Shown piece after piece: positions 3,617 to 18,737 of a DNA stretch of 20,494 nucleotides. The stretch's first letter is position 1, and the number at the start of each line of letters is the position of its first letter. The DNA is taken from positions 1 through 20,494 of the IMG/VR virus record IMGVR_UViG_3300009506_000215. The stretch is one strand, 5' to 3'. Below the pieces are notes generated by a model. It saw nothing but the letters and a program-made list of their open reading frames with translations. It ran no database searches and was not told where the DNA came from. This stretch comes from a virus. A program made the translations under genes and the position numbers.

Positions 3617-4018
3617 ATGAGAAACGCAATAATCACCTTATCGATCATCGGATTGCTGTGTTCAGCGGTTGTGTGGTTGTCTGCGGCCCGCTACCACGGA
3701 CCCGATGCGACCGACATTATCGAATCGCAGGGCCCGTCTGATGCCGACGACTTAGACATCGAGCCGGTAGATGTGGGAGAGACAATCTACCTGAACATCA
3801 CCAAAGATCCCGACAAGTATGATTCAAATGCAAAAACTGAGTTATTCTCCATGTTGACCAAGTTCGACCCAGAAGAATACAAGAACGCCGACACTTATCT
3901 GCACACGGAGGTGCCGATTCACGTCTACCTTTACAGCGACGATGATGTATACGATTTCGTAATCCTGCCCGGAAGTTACAAGGGTGCGATCATGCTGAAC
4001 GAAGGGAGCTCGACATGA
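3617..4018 (+). CDS. Membrane-anchored or exported hypothetical protein
   Basis: This is a 133-residue protein. Residues 3-23 form a hydrophobic segment (AIITLSIIGLLCSAVVWLSA) after a short basic start, consistent with an uncleaved signal anchor or a signal peptide. The rest is acidic and probably folds outside the cytoplasm, with Asp-rich stretches near residues 42-50 and a beta-like VPIHVYLYSDDDVYDFVIL segment late. A GAGGAGG precedes the ATG. It overlaps the holin-like gene by four bases, which suggests a place in the lysis block, possibly as an accessory envelope protein. That role is inferred from context only. Confidence 0.65.
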   Translation: MRNAIITLSIIGLLCSAVVWLSAARYHGPDATDIIESQGPSDADDLDIEPVDVGETIYLNITKDPDKYDSNAKTELFSMLTKFDPEEYKNADTYLHTEVPIHVYLYSDDDVYDFVILPGSYKGAIMLNEGSST

Positions 4019-4221
4019 GTGACAAGAAGAAAACCCCAAAGACATCCAAGGCGGCATTCGGAGGTGCGGCCGGAACGATTCTGCTACTACTGGCCAAGCA
4101 GTTCATCCCCGGTGCTGACGAGTGGATCACGCAGGAGTTCGTAGCGGCCTTCCTGACGGTCGTAGGCGCTCTTGTCGCTCATTTCATGCGTAAGGGCATG
4201 GTAAAGGAGCCCGAGGAATGA
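4015..4221 (+). CDS. Putative holin (68 aa, two membrane helices)
   Basis: This small protein has a charged N-terminus (MSDKKKTPKTSK), a first hydrophobic segment at about residues 14-28, a short polar turn (GADEW) and a second hydrophobic segment at about 43-58, ending in a basic/acidic tail. That size and two-helix shape are typical of phage holins, which make membrane holes and time lysis. An M15 peptidase gene about 1 kb downstream supports the idea. The start overlaps the previous gene as ATGAG, and the stop overlaps the next as ATGA. Holin families are too diverse for a firm call by eye. Confidence 0.55.
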   Translation: MSDKKKTPKTSKAAFGGAAGTILLLLAKQFIPGADEWITQEFVAAFLTVVGALVAHFMRKGMVKEPEE

Positions 4222-4322
4222 TACGAAAACTGATTAAGTTTGTGCTGGTCCTTCTGGCGGCATTCGTAATATGGTACATACTGATGCACTTCGGGGGCGA
4301 ACCGAAGGCGGGAGGTTTCTGA
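4218..4322 (+). CDS. One-helix membrane peptide (34 aa)
   Basis: The gene begins in an ATGA overlap with the holin-like gene, with GAGGA just upstream, and ends in a TGATG overlap with the next gene. The product has a basic start (MIRKLIK) and one strongly hydrophobic helix (FVLVLLAAFVIWYILM), then a short GGEPKAGGF tail. The organisation and charge pattern make it a plausible coupled membrane peptide of the lysis block, for example a holin modulator. That role is inference. Confidence 0.55.
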   Translation: MIRKLIKFVLVLLAAFVIWYILMHFGGEPKAGGF

Positions 4323-4786
4323 TGCGAAAGCAGAATAGCACGGCATTACCGTTCGTCACGCTGGCCATGATGGTCCTTTTCGCCGCGGCGATTCTCTTTT
4401 GGAATCGCTTTGCCGTCGAATGCTCGGCGCCAACCGATGTCACCGGGACGTATTTCATGGTGAATACTGACCAGGCTTCCATTCAATCATATCCGGACCC
4501 GCTGGATCTCACCCAGTTGCGGGAGAAAGACGTACTCAGGAGCGGTAGGTTCCCCGTTCTTGTTACTGACTATCCGGAATGGAAAGGATCTTACGCCCTG
4601 AACCCGACAAATCGGAAGGCTCCAGGTAGTCTGATTCTGAGCAACGAAAAAGATCAGGAATTGACATTCACGGTGAAAACGTGTAAAGGAATAACCACAT
4701 TGGAGAGCGTGAATCTAATACCCGTATTGACGTACAATGACGCACCGCTAACGGTTATGGACATAGACGAAGATTCGGACATGTGA
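4322..4786 (+). CDS. Exported hypothetical protein, paralogue 1 (154 aa)
   Basis: I place the start at ATG 4322 because it overlaps the previous stop (TGATG) and has GGGAGG nearby. The same frame is open upstream to an ATG at 4271, but that would overlap the small membrane peptide. Residues 10-27 are hydrophobic (FVTLAMMVLFAAAILFW), a signal peptide or anchor. The mature part starts with Cys-x2-Pro-x-DVTGTY and contains a later TFTVKTCKGI segment. Both motifs recur in the next gene, so the two look like tandem paralogues. The small beta-rich outside domain could sit in the envelope. I do not recognise a catalytic motif or a spanin-like coiled coil. Confidence 0.65.
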   Translation: MRKQNSTALPFVTLAMMVLFAAAILFWNRFAVECSAPTDVTGTYFMVNTDQASIQSYPDPLDLTQLREKDVLRSGRFPVLVTDYPEWKGSYALNPTNRKAPGSLILSNEKDQELTFTVKTCKGITTLESVNLIPVLTYNDAPLTVMDIDEDSDM

Positions 4787-4809: not shown

Positions 4810-5145
4810 ATGCGAAGTACAAGATTTGCGGGCATTGTGATGGTTATCCTGTTTGCCTGTCAATATTACGGGTGTTGCGAGGTGCCGGACGATGTTACCG
4901 GGGACTATTATGCTATGGTAGAAGCAGACCACGCCATTCCGGGTTCATTCGTGCTGGAACAGGTAGGGTCGAATGTGTTCGTGACGGGCGACCCGATGAA
5001 ATTCGGATACTACGACATAGATACGGGACAGTTGATAATGATCGACCCCCTAGGCCCGGACTGGACGTTCAGTGCCGATTGCTGCGAGGGCATCAAGGTT
5101 CTTTATGGACATATCGGCGAGGTGGAAGTGATCTACAGCGAATAA
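4810..5145 (+). CDS. Exported hypothetical protein, paralogue 2 (111 aa)
   Basis: ATG 4810 is preferred because it follows a purine-rich AGAGGGGGAAG and gives a normal signal peptide: a basic MRSTR start, a hydrophobic FAGIVMVILFA segment and a Cys-rich end (YYGCC). A GTG at 4783 and an ATG at 4789 would extend the frame upstream. The mature part starts with CCEVPDDVTGDYY and later has TFSADCCEGIKVL, matching the preceding gene at both places. The product is shorter than its neighbour because the middle is reduced. A lipoprotein is possible given the early Cys, but no classical lipobox is clear. The function is unknown. Confidence 0.65.
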   Translation: MRSTRFAGIVMVILFACQYYGCCEVPDDVTGDYYAMVEADHAIPGSFVLEQVGSNVFVTGDPMKFGYYDIDTGQLIMIDPLGPDWTFSADCCEGIKVLYGHIGEVEVIYSE

Positions 5146-5155
5146 GGTACATGAT

Positions 5156-5548
5156 GTGCCGTGGCAGGATTTACTCAAGGATTTGTTCTTGAATGGAGTA
5201 TATGCGCCGCCTCTGGACCCCGATGCGGCAAGTTTGCGTCAGTGGCAGTCGAAGTTCGCGTGGATGCTGAAGGATTTGATAGACGAAGCATTCCGGAGGG
5301 GGTATGAAGTCACGCTCGGAGAAAGCTATGTACCCGACCCTGCGAAGACCGGGCATAATCCTAATGGCGTTCACAGCCTACGGCTTGCTCAAGACCTCAA
5401 TCTATTCAAGGACGGTAGATATCTCACGGAAACGGAAGATCACCGGCCACTCGGGGAGTACTGGAAATCGAAGGGCGGGACATGGGGAGGAGACTTCAAG
5501 CGACCAGACGGGAACCATTATTCACTAGCATGGAAGGGTAGGGCGTGA
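5156..5548 (+). CDS. M15-type peptidoglycan peptidase (endolysin)
   Basis: This 130-residue protein matches small phage endolysins of the M15 metallopeptidase type, which cut peptide cross-links in the cell wall. The N-terminal region has a long helix (about residues 25-48). The active-site motifs follow: HSLRLAQDLNLF gives His73 and Asp80, and GGDFKRPDGNHYSL gives His121 as the third zinc ligand, with Asp118 nearby. The W..GG..F segment before it is also typical. There is no signal peptide, so release would need the holin. The start is a GTG at 5156 with AAGG upstream; ATGs at 5151 and 5154 are in other frames. It ends in a GTGA overlap with the next gene. Confidence 0.88.
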   Translation: MPWQDLLKDLFLNGVYAPPLDPDAASLRQWQSKFAWMLKDLIDEAFRRGYEVTLGESYVPDPAKTGHNPNGVHSLRLAQDLNLFKDGRYLTETEDHRPLGEYWKSKGGTWGGDFKRPDGNHYSLAWKGRA

Positions 5549-5771: not shown

Positions 5772-5821
5772 GGGGGACCACCACCGGCCGGCCGGGTCTC
5801 GGGGTGTGGTCCCCCTTTTTT
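5772..5821 (+). terminator. Strong intrinsic terminator after lysis block
   Basis: GGGGGACCAC (5772-5781) pairs fully with GTGGTCCCCC (5806-5815). The stem extends inward by ACC/GGT around a bulged C, and a run of six T follows (5816-5821). The portal ribosome site begins about ten bases further on, so the terminator sits directly against the next gene. Confidence 0.9.
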
Positions 5822-5844
5822 CGTGGGTTGGAAGGACGAACCGA

Positions 5845-7734
5845 ATGCCAAGCGAAACCTCACGAGCCGGAAAGGCGTATGTAGCTGAATTCGTTATGGA
5901 CGTGTTCAAGAACTTCAGCGAGCAGCGACAGGAGCTCCTTGAAGACCGGATGCACACGAATTACGACGCCTATATCGGCAACAAGAACTCCGATTATCTC
6001 CGGAAGTGGAGGAAGTTAGAGGGTAGCGACTGGCGGTCCAACGTGTTCGTGAGACTCACAAAGCAGAAAACCATATCCTACGTCGCGCAAGTTGGCGGCA
6101 TCGAAGACCAGGGCGGCCAGGTGCCGAAAGGCATAGAACCGACGCCATACCCGGAAAACGCCCCCGACATGCCTATGAGCGTGGAGGAGGCTAGGAAGCG
6201 CTGTGATCTCATGTCCAAGAAGGTGGACGATCTGGACGTGGAGACACACATTCGTCGCGTGGTGGCGTCCTCACGGCTCGAGATGGGTATTTATGGATGG
6301 TCCTGGCTGCATTATCCGGTTCTCATGCCGTATCAGATAAGCGAGTCGCAATTCGTTCCCCCGGATGTGGGCGGATTGCAGTTGCCTCCAGAGCTCATTC
6401 AGCGTTTCGGCACGTTCAAGATGAAGCAGTCTACCGTTATGCTTCCGACCGTCCAGCATCCGAACATCTGGGATATCTTCTGGGATCTGGAAGAGTCGGA
6501 CCCGCAGAAGGGGCAGGGCATTATCTATCGCCGGTTTATGAGCAAGTGGGAACTCAGGCAACTAGCCAAGGGGCGCGGATGGAACGAAACCTACGTCGAA
6601 AACGTGATAAAGCATTACGAGAACGACGACGACAGCGACGACACGGACGGTCAGGAGGGCGACTACCGGGACAGTCTCATCCATCGCAGGCGCAATATCC
6701 CGGTGCTTGCCTATTGGGGCCGTATGAACCGCAAATATGTGAAGGGCCACACGGGCGGCAAGGGTTCCTATGAGCTCGGGGAACTCAGCGAGGACGGCAA
6801 GGATCAGGAGATATTCACCGTCGTCGCAGGGAACGCCAAGAGAAACGAGGTAATTTACGCTCCGAAAGAAAACACCCTTCCGCTCAAGCGCAGACCGCTT
6901 TACCTGTGTAGGCTAGAGGACATACCACACGAAGCCAGGGGTGTAGGCGTACCCGAAAACGTCGAGGATATGCAGGAAGTTATCAACGGCCTTGTGCGCT
7001 GCTACCTGGACAACAAGAAACTGGCGGCGAACATCCTCATGGCAGGGAAGATCGAAAACCTGGACCCGGATACTGACACAACGCTATGGCCTGGTAAATG
7101 GTTTCAGTTGGCCGAGAACGTACGCACGATTAACGAGGCTTTTACCTTCTTTGCCCCTCCGGATGTGACGCAGGGCATGGAACGATCGATTGCCATGTTT
7201 GAGAGTTTCGCAGACCGGGCCTCTAATCTTCCACAGATATTGGAGGGCGCAGTAGAGAAGCCCGGGAAGCACACGGCATTCGAGATATCGCAGGCATCAC
7301 AGAATGCGAACCAGACCATCGGGGCTGCCGTAAAAAACCGTGATGAGTACCACTTCAAGCCGGTCATGGAATCACAATATGCGTGGCTTATGCTCAACGA
7401 CCCGGACCCGAGCATCAAGGGCGACTATACCTGCAAGGCGATGGGTTCTCAGCGATATCAGAACCAAATTACGCAGCAGCACAAGATATTGCAGTTCGCG
7501 CAATTCGCCCTGCAAGACCAGTATTTAAGGATGCTGACAAAACCGCTCCCGCTCTTAAAGGATTTTGCGAGGGCGCTCAACATGGACCCGGAGAGGGTGA
7601 TCAAGACCGAGGAGGAGTTGAAGGCACAACAGGAGGAGATCATGGGCTATCTGACCCAGAACGCGGGCCGGGGCAATGTTATGCCCCAAGCACCGCCGGG
7701 GGAAGAGGCCGCAGGTCGAATTCTGCAACCATAA
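5845..7734 (+). CDS. Portal protein
   Basis: The portal is the dodecameric ring at the capsid vertex through which DNA enters and leaves. The 629-residue product has the features of large portals of short-tailed phages: a helical N-terminus, a DWRSNVFVRLTKQKT segment, an IYGWSWLHYPVL segment, HPNIWDIFWDLEES, a central IPHEARGVGVPENVEDMQEV helix region, and an extended helical C-terminus ending in a Gly/Pro/Ala-rich tail. I chose ATG 5845 because AAGGA (5832-5836) lies eight bases upstream. The earlier in-frame GTG at 5806 lies inside the terminator stem and is unlikely to be used. The position between terminase and scaffold/capsid genes agrees. Confidence 0.9.
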   Translation: MPSETSRAGKAYVAEFVMDVFKNFSEQRQELLEDRMHTNYDAYIGNKNSDYLRKWRKLEGSDWRSNVFVRLTKQKTISYVAQVGGIEDQGGQVPKGIEPTPYPENAPDMPMSVEEARKRCDLMSKKVDDLDVETHIRRVVASSRLEMGIYGWSWLHYPVLMPYQISESQFVPPDVGGLQLPPELIQRFGTFKMKQSTVMLPTVQHPNIWDIFWDLEESDPQKGQGIIYRRFMSKWELRQLAKGRGWNETYVENVIKHYENDDDSDDTDGQEGDYRDSLIHRRRNIPVLAYWGRMNRKYVKGHTGGKGSYELGELSEDGKDQEIFTVVAGNAKRNEVIYAPKENTLPLKRRPLYLCRLEDIPHEARGVGVPENVEDMQEVINGLVRCYLDNKKLAANILMAGKIENLDPDTDTTLWPGKWFQLAENVRTINEAFTFFAPPDVTQGMERSIAMFESFADRASNLPQILEGAVEKPGKHTAFEISQASQNANQTIGAAVKNRDEYHFKPVMESQYAWLMLNDPDPSIKGDYTCKAMGSQRYQNQITQQHKILQFAQFALQDQYLRMLTKPLPLLKDFARALNMDPERVIKTEEELKAQQEEIMGYLTQNAGRGNVMPQAPPGEEAAGRILQP

Positions 7735-7746
7735 GAGGAGGATGGC

Positions 7747-8010
7747 GTGAGGAAGCACCCGACACAATTATCAGTGGAACAGGTAGAGGCTTTCAGTCAA
7801 TGCGCTGCCTGCCGGTTCTGGAAAGTGTGGCTCAAACTGATAGACGACGAGGATGTGGCCTTGGACAAGGAACTTCGCCAGCCGATAAATGTTCGGGAGG
7901 CGGATTTGTTTGCCAAGGGACAACTCGAGACCCTATCATGGTTGCGAAGTCATCCGGACCTAGCATTGAAGGCCATTGAGAAAGCCAAAGAAAAGGAATC
8001 GAAGAGGTAA
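7747..8010 (+). CDS. Small portal-adjacent hypothetical protein (87 aa)
   Basis: A strong GAGGAGG lies before a GTG start at 7747; a nearby ATG at 7742 stops after two codons. The product is mainly helical and charged, with a CAAC pair at residues 19-22, a WKVWLKLIDD helix, and a Lys/Glu-rich C-terminal helix. It fits the small helical proteins often found just after portal genes in such phages, whose role is unknown. It is the last gene before the second terminator. Confidence 0.75.
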   Translation: MRKHPTQLSVEQVEAFSQCAACRFWKVWLKLIDDEDVALDKELRQPINVREADLFAKGQLETLSWLRSHPDLALKAIEKAKEKESKR

Positions 8011-8040
8011 GTAGCAGTACCCAAACTTATGCTCACAATT

Positions 8041-8089
8041 AGCGGATCTCGACTGGGCGCCCAGATCCCGAGTCGAGGTCCGCTTTTTT
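8041..8089 (+). terminator. Strong intrinsic terminator after portal block
   Basis: A 14-base arm AGCGGATCTCGACT (8041-8054) pairs with AGTCGAGGTCCGCT (8071-8084) with one T-G wobble. The 16-base loop itself contains GGGCGCCC, and a T tract follows (8084-8089). It separates the portal block from the 1085-residue protein, whose start lies 33 bases on. Confidence 0.93.
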
Positions 8090-8122
8090 GTGGGCGAAAT
8101 GAAAACAGAAAGGAGCAAGTAA

Positions 8123-11100
8123 ATGAATCGTAAGAAAATGATAACCATTGCAGCCGTTGTTCTGGCCGTAGGAATGGCGACTACAGCAGCATACGCCGTA
8201 TGGAATCAGCTTCAGTGGTTCCGCGCTGGCATGGTCGTCTTCCAGAACGGGAACGGCAAAGCCATTGACGTAAGGACTGGCGATCTAACGTTCGATGATG
8301 GCTACGTCAAAATCGATGACGGATCTAGCACTACTCCGTCTACCACTCTTGCAGACGGCGGATTGTTTCTAACCGGAGTAGTCGAATCTGACGGGGGCGC
8401 AAACTTCGACGAGAACGTAACCGTTGCAGGCATTATCGATTTCGACAGTGCCACCGTCGATGGAACGGACAGCTATATCGAAATGCCTGAAATCACTGCT
8501 CCCGGCAGTCCTGCGGCCAATACCGGGCGCATCTACGTCGCTGATGACGGCGGCGGAACGACCACGCCCTACTTCAAGGATTCTGCCGGTGTGGCTACGA
8601 GCCTTATCGCTGCCGCTGCGGGTGGTAATACTCTTGATCAGGCATATGACCAGGGTGGGGCTGGATCCGGCAATAAGATCAATGCGGACTCTAATGAGGT
8701 GGAAATCGAGGTTGCAGACACCTCGGCCAACGTCGCCCTTTTGCTCGACAATAACGATGTTACTGGAAATCCGGATACCCTGTCTATCGACAATGCCGGT
8801 ACGGGTGATGCGATCGCCGTTAATTCGGCCGGGGGCGGCCTGGACTTCGACGGGACGGTTGCCACCATAGCGGCCAACGGCGATGTTAGTATGAACGATC
8901 TGACCGCCGTGGACGGCACATTCAGTGGGAACCTTTACATCCCCGCGCTCGTGTCCGCTGCCGCTGGCAATGTGAATCTTACGATTGATGCCGCAGGCAC
9001 CGGTACAATCGCAATCGGCAACACATCGACAGGACGCATATACACGACGAATGCGGCCGTAGACATCGGAGATGCCGCAAGTGATACGCTTACGATTACG
9101 TCCAGTGTAGATGCAGACCTTGTTTTTGATGATCAGGTTACAGACTCCCCGAAAGCCACCTTCACAGCAGCGACGAACAACAGCGGGTCTGTCCATCAGG
9201 ACAACACGACCGACGACCTTATCCTTGCTCCAAGTACGGCCAATGCCGCAGACGGTGTGAGGGTGCTTACCGGAAACCTGATGGTAGGAAACGGCGTACC
9301 GGGTGTGGCCCTGAATGGCGAAGACGCCTACATTGAAGGCACCCTGGAAGTTGATGGCGCAACACAGATGGACGGAGCCCTTGTGGTGAACTCTACGGTG
9401 CAGACTACTGGCGGCCTGAACTGCGACGAGAGCATTGACATCGATTTCGACGCGAACGACGAATACTTCACCGTAACGTCGAACGACTCTGCCTACGCCG
9501 CCGACGCCATCATCAGCACGTTCTACGGCGAGGATGCAACAGGCTCCACGAACGACACGACACTTGTGGGCCTCATGTGGAAGGCCGACGCCGATGCGAA
9601 CGATATTTTCTTCACCTGTTCTGATAACGACGGTGACGAGAAGTTCGCCATCGGCCCTGGCGGGAATACCGCCTGGACGCTGGACGCGGCCGCTGGAGTG
9701 GTTGTAGACAAGGCCACTACAGACTCAACCGTTGATGGACTCGCCATTTCCCACGATACAAACACAAACGGTATGTACGCTATCGATATCGACAGCAATT
9801 ACCTTGCCGGGAATGGGGTTGGTGAGTACAGCGGCGGTATCTATATCAATCTGGACGACGACTCTGACGCCGCAGGGTATTACGCAGGAATCTTCATCGA
9901 CGGAGCGGAAGTACCCCATGTCGGCTCAAGTACAATCGACGGATTATGGATTGAAGATATGGATGCTGGCGTTAGAGTTTTCACACCGGCAGCGGGCAAG
10001 GCTCTTTTTGTCGATGCCTATACAAACGACCTGACAAATACAGACGGTGCTATCGATATACAGATCGACACGCTTACCAACGGTGTCGATGGTGTGCGCG
10101 TTGACCTGGACTGGCTGGATGCCGCAGATAGTGCCGTTGGCAATGCTTTCTACGCCGACCTTGACGACGACGATACAACCCTGACCGTGAACGAGTCGAT
10201 CCTGCGTGGTTTCTCTGCCGTCGCAACCGATGTAACTGGAAACGCTCTTGTGCAGGGCTTCTACACAGGCGGTGCGGAAGTCGCCCTTCAGGCCGACACC
10301 GGGTATGTCAGAATCGGCAATCTCGGTACGCCCGATGTGACTCCTGGAGATGGCGACCTGTACGCAGAGGGGACTGTGGAAGTTGACGGAGCGACCCGCC
10401 TTGATGGTGCATTGACTTTGAACGCAGCCCTAACACAGACCCTTGGTGCGGGAGAAGCTCTTACAATAGATGCGGATACCACGGCGCACACAGGAACAGC
10501 CGGTGCAATCAACATGGACTACAGAAGCGCCACAACTATATCGAGCGCCTTTGATTTGAATGTTGAATCCGATGTTGCAGGCGGAGCAAGCGAAGTTGTA
10601 AGAGGAATAGTTATCACCCTTGACGACGATGCCAACACAGCCTCCGACGAGGTAGTTGGTATTCAATTCGGATCTACGGGCGATGCTACCGGCCTTCAGT
10701 ACGCAATGGAGGTAACGGGTGCTGGAATCGATTATTCGCTAAAGGCCGATTCAGGACGCATTCTTTGTGTAGACCCGCTGGAACTCGGAGGGGCATCGGC
10801 AGGAACCAGTCCGATTGAGTTTGAAGGAACAACCGACAACTCTTCGGAAACCGGCCTAACCGTTGAAGACCCGACAGCAGACCGAATCATAACCCTGCCT
10901 GACTACAGTGGTTCAGTACCGCTTGTAAGCAATCAAGGGTTCACACAGACAGACTGTTCCGGCGTTGCAACGGCAACGGATATTACCGGCTCCAGTATTT
11001 CTCTGCCAGACGGGTGGTTCACGGCAGGGAAGGCAATCCGGTACACCATCGGCGGTACTTCGGATGGTTCTGGCGGCGCGGCCATGAGCCTTGCCATTTA

Positions 11101-11380
11101 CGTTGACGACGCTCAATTCGGAGTAGTCGAACTCACCACATCACAGAGTGACGACTGGTACGCCACGTTCACCATGTACGAATACACCGATGCAGCGCAT
11201 CAGAAGATCATCGGCGTTCTGGATGCAGAGGGCGAGGGCCAGACGGTTGAATACGACGTTGACACGACAAACTTCAACGACGGAGGCGCCACAACCGTTA
11301 AGCTCCAGGGTAACACCAACAACGCGGCAGACCATATCTATGTGGAGTTTGTCACCATCGAAACGTGGTCTAAAAATTAG
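8123..11380 (+). CDS. Large repetitive beta-rich protein with signal peptide
   Basis: This 1085-residue protein starts with what looks like a Sec signal peptide: MNRKK, a hydrophobic ITIAAVVLAVGMATTA core, and a TAAYA end suitable for cleavage after Ala25. The rest is Gly/Asp/Thr/Ala-rich and low in Lys and Cys, typical of extended beta structure in fibres or adhesins. Recognisable modules are LDQAYDQGGAGSGNKI (171-186), a repeated EGT-EVDGAT--DGAL motif at about 405-420 and 749-764, and three LDDD segments at about 577, 680 and 833. A C-terminal domain (about 930-1085) resembles a beta-sandwich receptor-binding tip. AAAGGAG precedes the ATG. It is probably a virion fibre or surface protein, but the signal peptide leaves secretion possible. 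Confidence 0.75.
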   Translation: MNRKKMITIAAVVLAVGMATTAAYAVWNQLQWFRAGMVVFQNGNGKAIDVRTGDLTFDDGYVKIDDGSSTTPSTTLADGGLFLTGVVESDGGANFDENVTVAGIIDFDSATVDGTDSYIEMPEITAPGSPAANTGRIYVADDGGGTTTPYFKDSAGVATSLIAAAAGGNTLDQAYDQGGAGSGNKINADSNEVEIEVADTSANVALLLDNNDVTGNPDTLSIDNAGTGDAIAVNSAGGGLDFDGTVATIAANGDVSMNDLTAVDGTFSGNLYIPALVSAAAGNVNLTIDAAGTGTIAIGNTSTGRIYTTNAAVDIGDAASDTLTITSSVDADLVFDDQVTDSPKATFTAATNNSGSVHQDNTTDDLILAPSTANAADGVRVLTGNLMVGNGVPGVALNGEDAYIEGTLEVDGATQMDGALVVNSTVQTTGGLNCDESIDIDFDANDEYFTVTSNDSAYAADAIISTFYGEDATGSTNDTTLVGLMWKADADANDIFFTCSDNDGDEKFAIGPGGNTAWTLDAAAGVVVDKATTDSTVDGLAISHDTNTNGMYAIDIDSNYLAGNGVGEYSGGIYINLDDDSDAAGYYAGIFIDGAEVPHVGSSTIDGLWIEDMDAGVRVFTPAAGKALFVDAYTNDLTNTDGAIDIQIDTLTNGVDGVRVDLDWLDAADSAVGNAFYADLDDDDTTLTVNESILRGFSAVATDVTGNALVQGFYTGGAEVALQADTGYVRIGNLGTPDVTPGDGDLYAEGTVEVDGATRLDGALTLNAALTQTLGAGEALTIDADTTAHTGTAGAINMDYRSATTISSAFDLNVESDVAGGASEVVRGIVITLDDDANTASDEVVGIQFGSTGDATGLQYAMEVTGAGIDYSLKADSGRILCVDPLELGGASAGTSPIEFEGTTDNSSETGLTVEDPTADRIITLPDYSGSVPLVSNQGFTQTDCSGVATATDITGSSISLPDGWFTAGKAIRYTIGGTSDGSGGAAMSLAIYVDDAQFGVVELTTSQSDDWYATFTMYEYTDAAHQKIIGVLDAEGEGQTVEYDVDTTNFNDGGATTVKLQGNTNNAADHIYVEFVTIETWSKN

Positions 11381-11412: not shown

Positions 11413-11814
11413 ATGCCAGCAGCCGGAGATAGAACGCTAACATCAAGCGGTCACATTTATGGTGATACGTTCATGGTTTTGGTTAATTGGACGGCGGATT
11501 CAGGCGATGGATCGTTTGCCGCGATGGTTATTCCGTGGAGAATTGACGGGTACATTCAGAAAATAACCACAGCGCCAGGAGGCACGGCACCGACAGCATC
11601 TTATGATCCAGTTTTAAAGGACGCTGACGGTGTGGATGTAACCGGGAATGTGCTTGCGAACAGGAGCGCGACGGCCGCCGAAACGGTGCGACCGAATTTC
11701 GATTCGGTAAAGACGCCGATTTATGTAGACGGATGCCTTTCGCTGACGATTACCGGGAACTCCGTGAACAGTGCGACTGGAACGATCAAGGTGTTTTTTA
11801 ATCGTAAACCGTAG
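11413..11814 (+). CDS. Small virion-like hypothetical protein (133 aa)
   Basis: AGGAGGTG lies upstream of the ATG but inside a predicted stem. The product is beta-rich with no Cys cluster or signal peptide. Its order of segments, IPWRIDGYIQKITTAPGG, SYDPVLKDADGVDVTGN, LANRSATAAE, then YVDGCLSLTITGN near the end, resembles short phage structural proteins encoded next to fibre or capsid genes. It may be a decoration or fibre-associated protein. That is inference from position and composition. Confidence 0.7.
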   Translation: MPAAGDRTLTSSGHIYGDTFMVLVNWTADSGDGSFAAMVIPWRIDGYIQKITTAPGGTAPTASYDPVLKDADGVDVTGNVLANRSATAAETVRPNFDSVKTPIYVDGCLSLTITGNSVNSATGTIKVFFNRKP

Positions 11815-11888: not shown

Positions 11889-12797
11889 ATGTCAGAAGAG
11901 CAGATGGTAACAGAGGTTATGGACGAAGTGAACGAAGAGGCTGGAGAATTCGACAAGGGTTTTGACGAAGAACCCGAAAGCGGTAGCGCCGAAGAAACGC
12001 CACCCTCGGAAGAGGCCGGGTCCGAAGAAGGCCCGACTACCTCCGAAGAGGATGGCGGTGCTGCCGGTGAAGGCGGCGAAAAATCGGTAGAAGTAGACTG
12101 GAAGGCCCGTGCCGAAGAGGCGGAAAGGCGACTGGCATCAACCGAGAAGGAGGCGAAAGACAATCACGCCGAATTCACGAAGCGATCCCAGGAACTAGCC
12201 GATCTGAAGAAGAAGGTCGAAGCGCTCGAGTCTGCCTCCGCCGGTGATCCCTACGAATTGACGCCCGAGGAACAGGCCATTCTGGACGACAATCCGGAAC
12301 TTGCAGGGCTCATCGACAAGATGGCCGGGAAGAAGACCGGTGATTACACCAGCTTACAGGAGACAATCAACAAACTCTCCGAGGCCGAGGCCAGACGAGC
12401 GAAAAACGATCTTCTCAACGAGACCAATTACAAGCTCGTGAAAGGGTTCACCCGAGAAGACGGTAAGCGCATCGAGGGACACGCCGACGCCGCCGAGATC
12501 ACCGGGAGTGACGATTTCAAGAGGTGGCACGAGGAAGAAGAGGCAAAGGATCCGTCTTTCAAGGACCGAGGACGAAATGCCTTTGAGAGCGGGGACGCGG
12601 AAACGCTTATCAACATCCTCTCCGCCTACAAGGCGAACCGCGCCGCGAAAGCCGCCGAAGCCGCCGAAACCAAACGCCTCGAGAAATCGAAGAAACAGAC
12701 CGACCAGGCACAAGCCTCTATTACCTCTGCTCCTGGCGGAACGCCGCAGGGAGGGAAGAGCGAAGGAACATTTGAAGAAGGATTCGACATGGAATAA
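11889..12797 (+). CDS. Capsid scaffolding protein (putative)
   Basis: The 302-residue product is strongly acidic over residues 1-75, mostly Glu, Gly, Ser and Pro. A predicted coiled coil follows (about 77-125, EEAERRLASTEKEAK through LADLKKKVEALESA), then a helical central region, a Lys/Ala-rich helix (about 250-272) and a Gly-rich tail. There is no signal peptide or enzymatic motif. A charged, helical protein directly upstream of the major capsid gene is the standard picture of a scaffold, which guides procapsid assembly and is then lost. The ribosome site GAGGAGG precedes the ATG. Identification rests on position and composition, not on a signature motif. Confidence 0.75.
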   Translation: MSEEQMVTEVMDEVNEEAGEFDKGFDEEPESGSAEETPPSEEAGSEEGPTTSEEDGGAAGEGGEKSVEVDWKARAEEAERRLASTEKEAKDNHAEFTKRSQELADLKKKVEALESASAGDPYELTPEEQAILDDNPELAGLIDKMAGKKTGDYTSLQETINKLSEAEARRAKNDLLNETNYKLVKGFTREDGKRIEGHADAAEITGSDDFKRWHEEEEAKDPSFKDRGRNAFESGDAETLINILSAYKANRAAKAAEAAETKRLEKSKKQTDQAQASITSAPGGTPQGGKSEGTFEEGFDME

Positions 12798-12841
12798 ACC
12801 GGCTCATTTGAGAGCCAACCTTTAAGGAGGTGAACTACCCA

Positions 12842-13846
12842 ATGGCAGATCAAGTCTACTCCGACATTTCCCCAAAGGTAGAGGGATACGCATCGAAGAT
12901 GTTGCTTGAAAGGGCACTGCCTGAAATGCCCCTCGAGCAGCTCGTCATGGTGCGGCCTTTGCCGGGAAAATCAACGAAAACAATGGTTCTGCGAAGATAT
13001 CTCAGCCTGAGCAGGATCACAACCCCGATGGCCGAGGGTGTCACGCCCGCGCTGGAAAAGATGACCTACGAGGATTTCTCGGTCGTTCTCGACCAGTTCG
13101 GTAAGGGCGTCCCGCTCACGGATCAGATCATGGACTTCCACGACGACCCGATTCTCGCCGAATCGACGGACCTGCTCGGCGAAATCACTGGCGAGTCGAA
13201 GGAGGTCTTCAACATCGAGGTGATCAAGGGTGGAACGCAGGCGGCCTATGCGGGCGGAACGACTCGTGCGACCGTCGATGAAACCATCCAGCTTACACAC
13301 ATCGATGTGGCGATTCGGACGCTACGCGGCAACAACGCGAAGTACTACAAAAAGAAAATCATGCCGACCGTGAAGTACGCCACCGAGCCGGTTCCGGATG
13401 CGTTCTTCGGATACACACACACCGATGCGGAACAGGATCTCAAGAGGATCGAGGGATTCCTGCCCGTTCACAAGTACGCAGACCCGACCAAGGCCCTGCC
13501 GAACGAGTTTGGTTCGATCGACCGGCTCCGCATCCTCACCGGAACGCTTTGCGAGCCGTGGGAGGATAGCGGTGCCGCAGTCGGCGCGACGGGTCTGAAG
13601 AGTACCAGCGCCGTCAATATCGACGTGTACCCGATGGTCATCATGGCCCCGAATGCGTGGTATTCAGTTCCTCTCCGGAGGAAGAACGCGCCGAGGGTGA
13701 TGGTGCTGAACCCTGGCAAGGCTCGCGGCGGAGACCCCTTCGGTCAGCGCGGAAGCGTGACAACCAAATTCTATCATGCAGGGCTTATCGTACAGGATCT
13801 CTTCCTGTACAGGATCGAGTTCGGCGTGACGGAGAACCCGCTGTAA
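12842..13846 (+). CDS. Major capsid protein, N4-gp56-like
   Basis: The 334-residue product resembles the N4-gp56 family of HK97-fold capsid proteins. Family-like points are the N-terminal helix with YASKMLLERALPEMPLEQL, the LSRITTPMAEGVTP segment, the YEDFSVVLDQFGKGVPLTDQ strand-helix, a central beta region, the VYPMVIMAPNAWYSVPL segment, and the closing DPFGQRGSVTTKFYHAGLIV followed by LYRIEFG. AAGGAGGTG lies upstream of ATG 12842, so a further in-frame extension to 12830 is unlikely. Two stop codons (TAA TAG) end it. It follows the scaffold and is probably one of the most expressed genes. Confidence 0.9.
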   Translation: MADQVYSDISPKVEGYASKMLLERALPEMPLEQLVMVRPLPGKSTKTMVLRRYLSLSRITTPMAEGVTPALEKMTYEDFSVVLDQFGKGVPLTDQIMDFHDDPILAESTDLLGEITGESKEVFNIEVIKGGTQAAYAGGTTRATVDETIQLTHIDVAIRTLRGNNAKYYKKKIMPTVKYATEPVPDAFFGYTHTDAEQDLKRIEGFLPVHKYADPTKALPNEFGSIDRLRILTGTLCEPWEDSGAAVGATGLKSTSAVNIDVYPMVIMAPNAWYSVPLRRKNAPRVMVLNPGKARGGDPFGQRGSVTTKFYHAGLIVQDLFLYRIEFGVTENPL

Positions 13847-13872: not shown

Positions 13873-14412
13873 ATGGAGATCATCAGTGGCGGATGCCTCG
13901 GTAATAACGGAACCGACATCTGTGTCATTCTGGGTTTCGTGCCGCAATGGATTTTCTTTCAGATCGATGCGAGCAACCCGACCACGTTCATGTGGAACAG
14001 GGAAGGGACACTTTACTCCAACTCCGATGTCGGTGGACTTCTGAACAACAACTCCACCTTCTCGGATCTTTCAGCGGCGAACGGTGTGACGGTATATTCC
14101 GGTGGCGACAAGATCATCTATGACGGGACAACCGACAACCGTTGGGAAGTCCATGAATCGGCCATCACGTTCCCTGCTGGCGACATCGCCCTTGCGGCTG
14201 ATGTAACGGGCAAATTCTACTGGGGCGGTCATGTGAAAAACGCATCGACCGATGATGACGAAGTGGAATACCCGGTACATGTCCTCGGGTCCGACACGCC
14301 GAAGGACGGAACCGTTCTCAGGCTTCCCCCGGGGTTTTTCCTCGGTGCGAGTTCAGTCTTGAACCCGAACGGTGCCAGAGTCAGTTGGCTGGCAATCGGG
14401 CAAAGGATGTAA
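13873..14412 (+). CDS. Capsid-adjacent hypothetical protein (179 aa)
   Basis: AAAGGAGGTG precedes the ATG. The product is beta-rich, with ICVILGFVPQWIFFQID near the start (residues 17-33), a VTVYSGGDKIIYDGT strand pair, and a closing PPGFFLGASSVLNPNGARV segment. Proteins with the GFVP-W-- and GFFLG-S---NPNG pattern commonly follow N4-gp56-like capsid genes in environmental phages. No function is known to me; a head decoration or vertex protein is possible. It is cleanly placed and has codon use like the capsid gene. Confidence 0.75.
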   Translation: MEIISGGCLGNNGTDICVILGFVPQWIFFQIDASNPTTFMWNREGTLYSNSDVGGLLNNNSTFSDLSAANGVTVYSGGDKIIYDGTTDNRWEVHESAITFPAGDIALAADVTGKFYWGGHVKNASTDDDEVEYPVHVLGSDTPKDGTVLRLPPGFFLGASSVLNPNGARVSWLAIGQRM

Positions 14413-14425
14413 TGAGATAGAGGGG

Positions 14426-14525
14426 CTTCGTCACATCATAAGGTGACGGGGAAACAAAACCGAGATGTTGGCCGGGGGGCCATCATGGGTCGCTCCCTCC
14501 TCGGTGATCCGGCCCCCTTGGCCAA
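14426..14525 (+). promoter_or_regulatory. Two tandem hairpins in a 134-base gap
   Basis: The first hairpin pairs CTTCGTCAC (14426-14434) with GTGACGGGG (14443-14451), using two wobbles. The second pairs TTGGCC (14468-14473) with GGCCAA (14520-14525) and continues through GGGGGCC/GGCCCCC after a small internal loop. Neither is followed by a T tract, so these are not ordinary intrinsic terminators. They may be RNA processing, stability or attenuation elements between the capsid genes and the connector genes. Confidence 0.5.
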
Positions 14526-14546
14526 TATCCAGAGGAGGTATGAACA

Positions 14547-15140
14547 ATGGAAGCGAGTGAAGCCTTGAATGAAAAAGACACGAAGAGGAAAAAAGTCAAG
14601 CAAAATCCGTATCTTGAGCAGTACCCAGACGACCCGTATCTTCTGAAAAACCCCGATGCTGTGCCGGACGAGGCGAACCGGTTTTTCGTCATAAAGCTCA
14701 ACGATCAGCCCGGAGACAAGAGCGAACCGGAACAGGTGAGTGTAGGCGGTGGATACGGGCCCAGGCCGCAAAGAGTGGCAGGGAAGAATCCGGAAACCGA
14801 CGAAGAATACCAGAAGTACCTGGAGACCAAGCCGCCGTGGGCGAGGACTCGAGGGAATCTGTCTCGATTCGTTCTACAGCGGAACGTCATGTGCGCCGTC
14901 CCCGGCCACGTCGTAGTGAGACTGAAGGATTCCTATAGGCCGAAGTACAAGCTGATTACGGCCGACCAGAATCCGGATGGCGATTTCGACGCTATGGTGC
15001 GACTTCCGAACTCCACGAGGTTCCCGTTCCAGCAATGGGAAATCACCGAAAAGGGATACAAGGCCCTCTTAGCCAAGGTTCGCAAAGACCCGAAGTTTGA
15101 GATCACGGAAGACGATTTGAAAAAATACATGGTGCTTTAA
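14547..15140 (+). CDS. Hypothetical structural-region protein (197 aa)
   Basis: GAGGAGG precedes the ATG at 14547; an ATG at 14540 stops after six codons. The N-terminal 40 residues are Lys/Asp/Pro-rich and probably disordered. A middle segment is Pro/Gly-rich (GGGYGPRPQRVAGKNPETDEE), followed by a beta-like core (CAVPGHVVVRLKDSYRPKY) and a helical C-terminus. I do not recognise the family. It lies between the capsid genes and the adaptor-like genes and ends in a TAATG overlap with the next. It may contribute to the head or connector, but this is inference only. Confidence 0.65.
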   Translation: MEASEALNEKDTKRKKVKQNPYLEQYPDDPYLLKNPDAVPDEANRFFVIKLNDQPGDKSEPEQVSVGGGYGPRPQRVAGKNPETDEEYQKYLETKPPWARTRGNLSRFVLQRNVMCAVPGHVVVRLKDSYRPKYKLITADQNPDGDFDAMVRLPNSTRFPFQQWEITEKGYKALLAKVRKDPKFEITEDDLKKYMVL

Positions 15141-16006
15141 TGGCCGATTATCCATACACGTCTTACGCCCGGAAGTTCAACGAGATTGTGGACGATACGT
15201 TACGCATTTGCTTGGACTTCCGAGGCAAAGGACAAGACGGCTACACGATAAAACAGGACGAAGTTCTACCAGCGGCGAAATGGGCCATCAATGAACTGGT
15301 GCGCCGGTCCTCATGCCTGCGGGAAGTGGGTGTTGTCGGATTGTCTGATGGCACGGGTATTTATGATCTTCCGCCCGATCTTCTTCGCCTGCAAAGAGTT
15401 GGATTTAATAACCTGAAAGGATACGTCATCCTTCCGACTTCGGTAACAGAGGTCGATATGTACGGAGGCGCATTCGAGCCGGAAGGAGATCCTGTAAAAT
15501 TCTATCGGGAAATGCTGGCTGACGATCAGATTGGACTTATGCCGGTTCCCGGTACGGACGGATCGACCTTCACACCAGCCGGATCTCTTCCCTACGGAAA
15601 CATTCGGGAACTCGTAGATGCAGACGGAAATGAATTGCCAATAACAAGCCCATCAACCAGAACTGGAACCGGGGAAAGCGGCCTGGGGCGAATTTCGGGT
15701 ATTCCGTTCCGGGTCCGAGGCGGTGGCCGTCCATTGCGGGAGGTGATCAGCCCCTACGGGAACGTGACCATCCATTACGTCCGCAAGCCCGACAATGACG
15801 GCAAGTATCCCGATGAGGGTTTACCCGAGTGGGTACACAAGGATGTGAAGTACGGGGCGGCAGCATATGTGTTGCAATATCGCCGGGAGCCGAAACTGCG
15901 GCAACTCGCCGCCCGGTATTCAGCGAAGTGGGACATGGTAATCGGCAAGGTGCGTAGGCGCACTTTCCACAGGGGACCGATGGGACACAGTGCGGAGCCG
16001 ATGTGA
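15140..16006 (+). CDS. Head-tail adaptor-like protein 1 (288 aa)
   Basis: The start overlaps the previous stop (TAATG). The N-terminal third is helical, with DEVLPAAKWAINELVRRSSC. A GIYDLPPDLLRLQRVGFNN segment follows, then GDPVKFYREMLADDQIGLMPVPG. The alternation of N-terminal helices, Y-D-L-P-x-D-[FL]-L-R, then G-x-P--[FY], then L-P-P--G is typical of phage adaptor or connector proteins that extend the portal ring in short-tailed phages. The C-terminal part has another helical run (VHKDVKYGAAAYVLQ) and a basic end. The same design recurs in the next gene. Confidence 0.65.
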   Translation: MADYPYTSYARKFNEIVDDTLRICLDFRGKGQDGYTIKQDEVLPAAKWAINELVRRSSCLREVGVVGLSDGTGIYDLPPDLLRLQRVGFNNLKGYVILPTSVTEVDMYGGAFEPEGDPVKFYREMLADDQIGLMPVPGTDGSTFTPAGSLPYGNIRELVDADGNELPITSPSTRTGTGESGLGRISGIPFRVRGGGRPLREVISPYGNVTIHYVRKPDNDGKYPDEGLPEWVHKDVKYGAAAYVLQYRREPKLRQLAARYSAKWDMVIGKVRRRTFHRGPMGHSAEPM

Positions 16007-16719
16007 TGGCCAAGAACCCCGAACTCCGAATGACGCTTGCAGAACTCGTCAATCAGACGTTCCTGCTATTGGGAGACCCGGCCAAGGAGCGATACGACGA
16101 AGATTATGTAAAGTTGCAACTCAACTTCGCACAGATGGATTTCTGCCTTGACACACATATGATCGTGGAAGAAATCGAGGAATTTCAATTAAAAGCGAAC
16201 GTATTTATCTACGATCTTCGGCAAGCAGCATTGAACGCCTACGAGGACGACGGAACCACGAGGCCCTATGCCTTTCCGATGCGTATCGTTTACTGGATAA
16301 CAGATACCCTCCAGAGAGTCCTGTATCCGCGCAGGATGGAAAACTTCGATATAGGGGGCATAGACAGGTCTGCAACCGGAGCGCCCTATTACTGGGGCAC
16401 TGAACTCGTCGGAGAGCATAAAATAATGGTCAACCCGATTCCCGATGAGGACGGGGACGCATCGGACGCGGAAGGGAACATCAACGTCAAATATTGCGCC
16501 TATCCGAATTACATGAGCGCGGATTCGGATTACCCGGACATCACGATTGCGAGTTTTCACGAAGCATTGCCGTTCCGGGCTGCCTCTAGGATCATGGAGG
16601 AGGACGGCGATATCGACGGAGCCGACGATCTGGAGGGGCAATTTCAACTCAGGCTTGCCCGGTTCCGGGGACATAGAAAAGTCGGCATGACGAGGTACAG
16701 GGGAGCAACGCCGCTATGA
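16006..16719 (+). CDS. Head-tail adaptor-like protein 2 (237 aa)
   Basis: ATG 16006 overlaps the previous stop as TGATG; a GTG at 16003 would add one residue. The product starts with helices (TLAELVNQTFLLLGDPAKERY; VKLQLNFAQMDFCLD), then a beta part with FIYDLRQ, RPYAFPMRIVYW, TGAPYYWG and HKIMVNPIPDEDGD, and ends with a helical ASFHEALPFRAASRIMEEDG and a basic tail. This follows the order seen in the preceding gene, so the two are probably distant relatives forming successive rings below the portal. Its stop overlaps the next gene (ATGA). Confidence 0.6.
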   Translation: MAKNPELRMTLAELVNQTFLLLGDPAKERYDEDYVKLQLNFAQMDFCLDTHMIVEEIEEFQLKANVFIYDLRQAALNAYEDDGTTRPYAFPMRIVYWITDTLQRVLYPRRMENFDIGGIDRSATGAPYYWGTELVGEHKIMVNPIPDEDGDASDAEGNINVKYCAYPNYMSADSDYPDITIASFHEALPFRAASRIMEEDGDIDGADDLEGQFQLRLARFRGHRKVGMTRYRGATPL

Positions 16720-18737
16720 TAATCGATCGGTTTTTCGGCATAGCGCCTAGATACAAGAACGACCCGGCCGCAGGATTTGCCCTGACTGCCGAGAACGTCG
16801 ATCTGTTCAGCGAAAAGATCAGGTCGGTCAGGTCGGATAAGCTGGTTCAACCATTGAACCCGGACGACATTGCAGACCACAACGACATGACCTACCATAA
16901 CGGTCAATTTTTAACAGGGAAGGACAAACATTATCATCGATGGATTACCGGCGCGTCGATTGATGGAGAGAAAACCCTTGATATTTTAATCTATCTCGAC
17001 GACAAGGGGAAATTGAAGAAATCCGTCAACGGAACCGTAGCGGATTTAGGTTGCGATCTTCCGGCCGTTCCGACGGTAGAGGATACGGGTGCACCCGGGG
17101 GAGCGACATACGAGGAATACTCGACGCATATAAAGCCGAACGACCCGCTGTATGATTGGAAGCCAAGCGGGTCAAACAACGAGTATTACCTTGCATATCA
17201 CGACGGAACCATACCGAATGATTTCGTAGAACCGAACGGCGTAAAAATAAAAGGGACCGAGAAGGTTGAAGGCGTTGTAGGCAGTCTGAATCGAAACGAA
17301 TGGGGATGGGGCAACAATGATGGCCTGTTGGACCAGGACGGGAACCCGGCCAACACGGTATATGTGAAGGTGTGGACAACCAGAAATTACTATGGCGCAA
17401 CCATATATTACTACAATCCCGACGAGGCCCTTTACGGACCCGGGGATTCAATGTGGGACCATATAGATGACAGTTGGATCCACATCATTCAGACCGGAAC
17501 GGTTCCGGTATATCAGGAAGGCACGAACATCATAGACGATAGTGTTCAATATATCATAACGTGGTCAAGGGATGTAAATGGGCACCTCGACGAGTCCGGC
17601 CCGTCCGACCCGACAGAAGGTTTGGAGATAGAAACATCGTCTGTGAAGATAACAAGGCCGTCCACCTACCCGGATTTTACGACTCACTGGAACATTTACC
17701 GCCTCGGGGAAAATACGGCAGAATTCCTGCTGGTGGATATCGTTCCAATAAGCCAGGAAAACTATTACGACTCGAAATCTCCGGACGACCTCGGGGAGAC
17801 ACCGCCGTCATGGTATAAATCCAGAGGCACAGAGAACGAGATAATATTCCGGCCCCCGCCTACCAGGGTTGACGGCATCATCGGCATGCACGCGGGGATG
17901 TTGTTTTACTATCTAGACAGCCGAATATTCTGGAACGAGCCGGAGAAGATTGACGCATGGAATTCGGACTATTGGGCCAATGCACCGGCAAAGATCAAGG
18001 GCGGAAAGCCCATAGGCGGTACGGTATCCATAATCACGGCAAATGGACCGTTCAGGCTGGACGGAACCGATCCTGAAAACATGATCCCGCCGACAAGGGA
18101 TCTCGGAGAGGAGCCGTGTCCGGGCCGAGCGATTGCCATTACGGAATTCGGGCTTACCTACCTCGGAGATTCCGGCATCACCAATTTCGACGGCGTACAG
18201 ACCAGGGTTATTTCCGATGAATCATTCGGAGAGGACTGGTTTGTAAAAAATATCAACTATGACACGGCCAGGATGGTGGATGGCGACGGAATACTGACGG
18301 TGTACCACGATGGCGGTCAACTGGTTATAGACCACAGGACTCAGCCGTTTATCGTCACGACCAGGGACGAAGTGATAAAGGCGGCGTATTTCAGGCCGGA
18401 GGACGGGAAACTCTTCAAACTGAAGGTCATGAGGGATGGCGCCGGGATTTACGAATCCGAGATGGGCGATGACTTCCTGACTGGAACATGGGAATCAGGG
18501 AACCTTCTCAACGGAAGCCCTGTCTTTAAACCGTGGAACAATGTCGTCGTAAACGGCGATGGTGATGCAGAGGTAACGGCTTATATAGACGGCGTGGAGG
18601 CGGCATCCAAGACAATGGAACTGTCACACACACTGGACAGGAAGCGGCGCCTTATGTTCCCGCAGCATTCTTTCGGGCGTTCGTCGAAAGTCAAACTGGT
18701 AGGAACTCTGTATGTCGATGAGGTGATAGTGGAATGA
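16716..18737 (+). CDS. Tail hub/plug protein, P22 gp10-like (putative)
   Basis: This 673-residue protein is mostly beta and lies after two adaptor-like genes. The N-terminus has FFGIAPRYKNDPAAGFALTAENVDLFSEKI, a pattern seen at the start of P22 gp10-type DNA-stabilisation/tail hub proteins. Residues about 118-265 look like an inserted domain, with NEYYLAYHDG, NEWGWGNNDGL and NTVYVKV. An FN3-like domain follows (about 278-362: YIITWSRDVNGHLDESGPS to WNIYRLGENT). The rest has repeated propeller-like strands (DGIIGMHAGMLFYYLDSRIFW; GTVSIITANGPFRLDG; LTYLGDSGITNFDGVQ). Such proteins close the head and build the short tail. The identity is inferred by pattern, so a related role is possible. Confidence 0.6.
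   Translation: MIIDRFFGIAPRYKNDPAAGFALTAENVDLFSEKIRSVRSDKLVQPLNPDDIADHNDMTYHNGQFLTGKDKHYHRWITGASIDGEKTLDILIYLDDKGKLKKSVNGTVADLGCDLPAVPTVEDTGAPGGATYEEYSTHIKPNDPLYDWKPSGSNNEYYLAYHDGTIPNDFVEPNGVKIKGTEKVEGVVGSLNRNEWGWGNNDGLLDQDGNPANTVYVKVWTTRNYYGATIYYYNPDEALYGPGDSMWDHIDDSWIHIIQTGTVPVYQEGTNIIDDSVQYIITWSRDVNGHLDESGPSDPTEGLEIETSSVKITRPSTYPDFTTHWNIYRLGENTAEFLLVDIVPISQENYYDSKSPDDLGETPPSWYKSRGTENEIIFRPPPTRVDGIIGMHAGMLFYYLDSRIFWNEPEKIDAWNSDYWANAPAKIKGGKPIGGTVSIITANGPFRLDGTDPENMIPPTRDLGEEPCPGRAIAITEFGLTYLGDSGITNFDGVQTRVISDESFGEDWFVKNINYDTARMVDGDGILTVYHDGGQLVIDHRTQPFIVTTRDEVIKAAYFRPEDGKLFKLKVMRDGAGIYESEMGDDFLTGTWESGNLLNGSPVFKPWNNVVVNGDGDAEVTAYIDGVEAASKTMELSHTLDRKRRLMFPQHSFGRSSKVKLVGTLYVDEVIVE

Follow-up and report, generated by a model that had tools for sequence, protein, structure and literature searches.

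A large fibre-like protein with a predicted Sec signal peptide encoded between the portal and scaffold genes of a podovirus-type phage

Tailed-phage virion proteins are expected to remain in the cytoplasm until lysis. Exported phage lysis and exclusion proteins are well known, as are phage fibres, and the locus described here raises the question of why a large fibre-like protein encoded among head genes should begin with what looks like an export signal. The window, i.e. the whole 20,494-base virus record IMGVR_UViG_3300009506_000215, has its listed phage genes all on one strand (the + strand as presented). They include a terminase (1279–2850, phrog_38), an M15-type endolysin (5156–5548), a portal (5806–7734, phrog_332, with SU10_portal below cut-off), a scaffold-like protein recognized by position and acidic composition (11889–12797), an N4-gp56-type major capsid protein (12830–13846, phrog_1357), an SU10-type adaptor (15140–16006) and a phrog_511 protein (16716–18737). 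Judged from the terminase, portal, scaffold-like, capsid, adaptor and phrog_511 genes, the window is part of the genome of a podovirus-type phage whose capsid is of the N4-gp56 type. The fibre-like gene (8123–11380, + strand, 1085 aa) has the portal gene as its upstream and the scaffold-like gene as its downstream neighbour; a small ORF (7747–8010) lies between it and the portal gene, and the next gene after it (11413–11814, + strand) codes for a 133-aa protein with no signal peptide and no family assignment.

The fibre gene starts at an ATG, and a good Shine-Dalgarno sequence, AAGGAG, can be read 7 nt before it (positions 8110–8115, + strand). An internal start bypassing the signal peptide was rejected, since later start codons lack a comparable Shine-Dalgarno. 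The predicted Sec/SPase I-type signal peptide covers residues 1–25 (8123–8197, + strand), with a predicted cut at AYA^V. As can be seen from the N-terminus of the protein, MNRKKMITIAAVVLAVGMATTAAYA^VWNQ, every part of a Sec/SPase I signal is present: a positively charged n-region (NRKK), an uncharged hydrophobic core (MITIAAVVLAV) and, preceding V26, the residues AYA, which satisfy the -3/-1 rule with small residues at both positions. Mean Kyte-Doolittle hydropathy reaches 2.31 over 15 residues in the core, the maximum for the protein and a value attained within the first 35 residues in 0.5% of shuffled copies. We scored these features with a purpose-written rule (charge, uncharged hydrophobic core, -3/-1 residues) calibrated on an E. 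coli K-12 stretch, in which it passed 12/12 exported, 0/23 cytosolic and 2/4 multi-span membrane proteins, the exported and cytosolic labels being our own. The window protein scored 12.83, within the range of the exported E. coli proteins (10.15–13.72), and none of 2000 shuffled versions of its first 60 residues reached this value. Among 1010 long ORFs from about 100 phage loci, only 15 passed the rule and several of these passes are false; we judged this to be the case for L056 and for four terminases (internal hydrophobic segment, ATP-binding region). No lipobox cysteine follows the h-region, the first Cys of the protein being residue 434. We conclude that the Sec signal peptide proposed for this ORF in the sequence-only reading is real as a sequence feature, conforming to the n/h/c-region and -3/-1 rules and scoring as exported proteins do. 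Export of the protein is likely.

That earlier reading had proposed looking in metagenomic phages for the same N-terminus. When the viral collection was searched with patterns from the full-length protein, the N-terminus or the portal, there was no match, and what recurs instead is signal peptides of unrelated sequence on comparable proteins. One of these is encoded directly after the capsid gene (9734–10555) in L102 (IMGVR_UViG_3300017991_000297), a phage with a phrog_15 terminase, a lambda-type portal (phrog_21) and a tape-measure protein, all three unrelated to those of the window phage. This protein has its own signal peptide, MKKFRQCMKSFGLIAILVSMAAIGLVWA, and its own Shine-Dalgarno, it weakly matches the phrog_38058 tail fibre (E 4e-4), and its linker and C-terminal domain are 51% identical to window residues 898–1084 (189 aa); it differs from the window protein in being only 273 aa long and in missing the long stalk. 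In L038, a relative with a capsid protein 40% identical to that of the window, the slot between portal and scaffold is occupied by a 304-aa protein that begins with a signal peptide and has, at 25.2 bits (cut-off 22), a GH16/ConA-type domain in which the catalytic ExDxE was not seen; a search for this protein in bacterial genomes found none. The more distant relative L009 has a signal-peptide fibre after its capsid gene, with a central module 43% identical to that of the window protein, and an OmpH/Skp protein, also with a signal peptide, encoded between its portal and scaffold genes (L009:1966–2667; PF03938, E 5e-14). Skp/OmpH is a periplasmic chaperone for beta-barrel proteins. Finally, L015, a different tailed phage, encodes a fibre that begins with a signal peptide, shares the TLDQAYD motif and has YadA-head repeats.

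The N-terminal segments of the L009, L038, L102 and L015 proteins obey the n/h/c-region and -3/-1 rules with unrelated sequence; since they are alike in kind and unlike in sequence, they are what selected export signals should look like. Fibres of cultivated phages for which the linker motif is all that is shared were also scored, and none had a signal peptide. Because of these four cases and the linker-only fibres, the comparison indicates that a signal peptide on a fibre-like protein is a trait and not an accident. A further gene of the window, located after the capsid gene (13873–14412), codes for a protein with the N-terminal pattern LGFVPxxI..W.R whose clear relatives are confined to L009, L036 and L038. 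All four carriers, the window phage included, also encode near their head genes a protein that has a signal peptide and is 233 aa or longer (Fisher 1.5e-5). We do not rely on this subclade, because the group was noticed through the signal peptides and because the window phage joins L036/L038 with a support of only 0.41 in the capsid tree.

The main alternative to export is that the protein is a head or neck fibre of the virion, folding in the cytoplasm with its N-terminus unprocessed and serving as a particle anchor or as a membrane-touching segment in assembly or entry. The gene does lie between portal and scaffold/capsid, in a block where head-fibre and decoration genes are found, its linker and tip are also seen in virion fibres, and signal-peptide-like fronts occur on virion proteins of L036 and of L041/L043. 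In L036, a relative of the window phage close to L038, an SU10-type adaptor/connector (L036:3428–4135; PF24175, 69.5 bits, match from residue 29) is preceded by a 20-residue segment, MTRYILAAILAALVAIPAWA, that makes an equally good signal peptide and has a strong Shine-Dalgarno. A connector should hardly be able to act outside the cytoplasm. Near-identical collar-domain tail fibres of L041 (10087–11013) and L043 (8555–9481) also have signal-peptide-like N-termini. Together, the connector and the collar-domain fibres imply that, in this phage group, either a front of this kind can occur without secretion or some virion proteins are exported. However, the L041/L043 fibres start without a recognized Shine-Dalgarno, and the window N-terminus, like its L009, L038, L102 and L015 equivalents, obeys the n/h/c-region and -3/-1 rules, the type and not the sequence being conserved, as in an export signal. 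We consider an unprocessed virion fibre somewhat unlikely. Both options of the sequence-only reading are thus partly upheld: a different role for the hydrophobic N-terminus in a virion protein is kept alive by the L036 connector but is opposed by the n/h/c and -3/-1 pattern, whereas a secreted or surface protein is favoured by recurrence of the signal peptide in relatives and unrelated phages, with the connector front speaking against it.

The gene had also been placed inside the head operon, with expression alongside the head proteins. Its position between portal and scaffold stands and a common unit with scaffold and capsid is likely, but membership of the portal transcript is made less likely by an intrinsic terminator (8041–8090, + strand) that follows the portal unit and precedes the fibre gene and consists of a long G+C-rich stem (8041–8084) and a U run. 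The fold of positions 8025–8100 has a free energy of -41.5 kcal/mol (z -6.5), and 0/200 shuffles were as good. In the intergenic regions from the fibre gene to the capsid gene, no equally clear terminator was detected. Given the strong terminator before it and none equally clear up to the capsid gene, it is more probable that the fibre gene opens a fibre–11413–scaffold–capsid unit than that it is carried along on the portal transcript, and the 11413–11814 gene probably belongs to the same unit. A consensus sigma-70 promoter was not found just upstream of the fibre gene, an absence that says little for a phage. Elsewhere in the window, between the post-capsid gene and the following ORF, a very stable long hairpin without a U run (14413–14546; -58.5 kcal/mol, z -3.1) is a possible regulatory or processing element.

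The predicted mature protein (residues 26–1085; 8198–11377, + strand) appears fibre-like and all-beta. Its composition (A 12.7, G 12.0, D 11.9, T 11.7%) confirms the Gly/Asp/Thr-rich sequence described earlier, the beta character being taken from a low-confidence whole-chain model (pLDDT 37) that supports no claim about the fold. The protein is acidic, with 167 D+E vs 32 K+R and a pI of about 4.05. A central module, GRIYVADDGG..PYFKDSAG..TLDQAYDQGGAGSG (residues 118–245; 8474–8857, + strand), is common to large fibre-like ORFs on 13 viral contigs, two of them with signal peptides. The linker FEGTTDNSSETGLTVEDPTADRIITLPDYSG (residues 898–930; 10814–10912, + strand) has the pattern FEGxT..ET..T..DPTADR.ITLPDYSG, which matches tail fibre/baseplate proteins. 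Tail/appendage fibres of the pelagiphages HTVC008M and Kolga and of cyanophages have the same linker (FEGxTxDxxETxxTVxDPTADRTITLPD) and a beta-rich fibre composition, but their N-termini are of the cytoplasmic type, with no signal peptide, and their genes lie in tail/baseplate regions. Although no family in Pfam, PHROG or NCBIfam, and hence no curated fibre family, matches the window protein, and a PDB sequence search gave no match (five hits above E 0.3 were disregarded), the modules shared with fibres support the fibre-like character first read from the sequence. A C-terminal membrane anchor as in trimeric autotransporter adhesins gave no Pfam match, and the C-terminus is predicted to be a soluble jelly-roll.

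Structure prediction, proposed earlier for the full chain and for residues ∼930–1085, was informative for the latter part only. About residues 931–1085 (10913–11377, + strand) form a predicted beta jelly-roll homologous to the L102 C-terminus, in an all-beta model with a mean pLDDT of 59.9 and about 70 within the domain. Foldseek matched this tip to phage fibre, spike and depolymerase proteins. The PDB folds that it matched at Z about 10 were those of trimeric TNF-like lectins and legume lectins; the N-domain of BC2L-C (2wq4) gave Z 10.2 with an rmsd of 2.8 over 120 and legume lectins scored equally, jelly-roll matches at this level being commonplace and the tip model moderately confident. TNF-like lectins (BC2L-C N-domain, PLTL) resemble the predicted tip in jelly-roll topology, at only 13–17% sequence identity. 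The modelled fold resembles the trimeric TNF-like lectin type, a likeness that is no proof of sugar binding. Recurrence of the combination of signal peptide and fibre-like protein in unrelated viruses suggests that some phages export such proteins, probably sugar-binding ones, from the infected cell. A profile of the C-terminal domain recovered only L102 in viral contigs.

The low similarity of the window protein to known phage proteins, together with the strong upstream terminator, as with insulated accessory genes, would also fit accidental or host-derived cargo, that is, a captured bacterial surface-protein gene or an assembly artefact. We regard this as very improbable: the gene matches the flanking virion genes in strand and composition, related proteins occur in viral contigs, and no relative of the C-terminal domain was found in 84,980 bacterial and archaeal genomes in a pattern search of limited reach.

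The sequences themselves show a cleavable-type signal peptide and fibre-type repeats with a linker; the tip is predicted to be a jelly-roll, and other phages have this architecture too. We give about an even chance to the explanation that the window protein is a Sec-exported, trimeric, glycan-binding fibre with a surface or periplasmic role at the envelope of the infected cell. Such a fibre would be made late, together with the scaffold and capsid proteins, and the chain would be exported by Sec and cleaved after Ala25. Trimerization would follow in the periplasm, in L009 perhaps aided by the phage's own Skp, and the lectin-like tip would bind an envelope or surface glycan. The bound fibre could then mask receptors, or could alter the binding of progeny or competing phages by the dying cell and its debris. 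Besides receptor masking, its purpose may lie in aggregation, in the control of superinfection or in docking on virions after lysis. Alternatively, and improbably in our estimation, the exported fibre would form its trimer in the periplasm and attach to the released particles no earlier than lysis. This would reconcile export with the fibre modules and the head-operon position, and the phage-encoded Skp of L009 would suit beta-fibre folding in the periplasm, but it leaves the L036 connector unexplained, and no precedent for such docking was found in the part of the literature covered.

Among known systems, the superinfection-exclusion lipoproteins Cor and Llp are phage-encoded, exported to the envelope, small and processed by SPase II. 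Like them, the window protein is phage-encoded and predicted to be envelope-directed, but it is large, of the SPase I type and built as a fibre. The head fibre gp8.5 of phi29 is fibrous and its gene adjoins the capsid gene, so that it and the window protein are alike by description; to our knowledge, gp8.5 has no signal peptide. In a survey, target proteins of phage diversity-generating retroelements were without signal peptides (PMC6199706). Export of a tailed-phage fibre by Sec was not found reported, in a partial coverage of the literature in which absence proves little; within the same bounds, SPase I signals on large fibre-like proteins that are encoded in the head-gene blocks of unrelated tailed phages appear to be undescribed. 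The recurrence of such proteins means either that large fibres are deliberately placed outside the cell or that signal-peptide-like N-termini have an unrecognized role in the virion, and both readings are directly open to experiment. Deliberate export, if true, would give phages a new way to mask receptors, control superinfection or decorate virions after lysis. Tentatively, and with slightly less than even confidence, we propose a class of Sec-exported fibres beside the capsid genes of several unrelated tailed phages, one with its own periplasmic chaperone, that would act outside the cytoplasm as surface decoys or adhesins or dock on virions after lysis.

Three small proteins of the window (3617–4018, 4322–4786 and 4810–5145) have signal-peptide or lipoprotein-like N-termini and adjoin a holin-like ORF (4015–4221) and the M15 endolysin; the second and third look like paralogues (CSAPTDVTGTYF / CCEVPDDVTGDYY). 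These two may be envelope proteins of the spanin or exclusion type.
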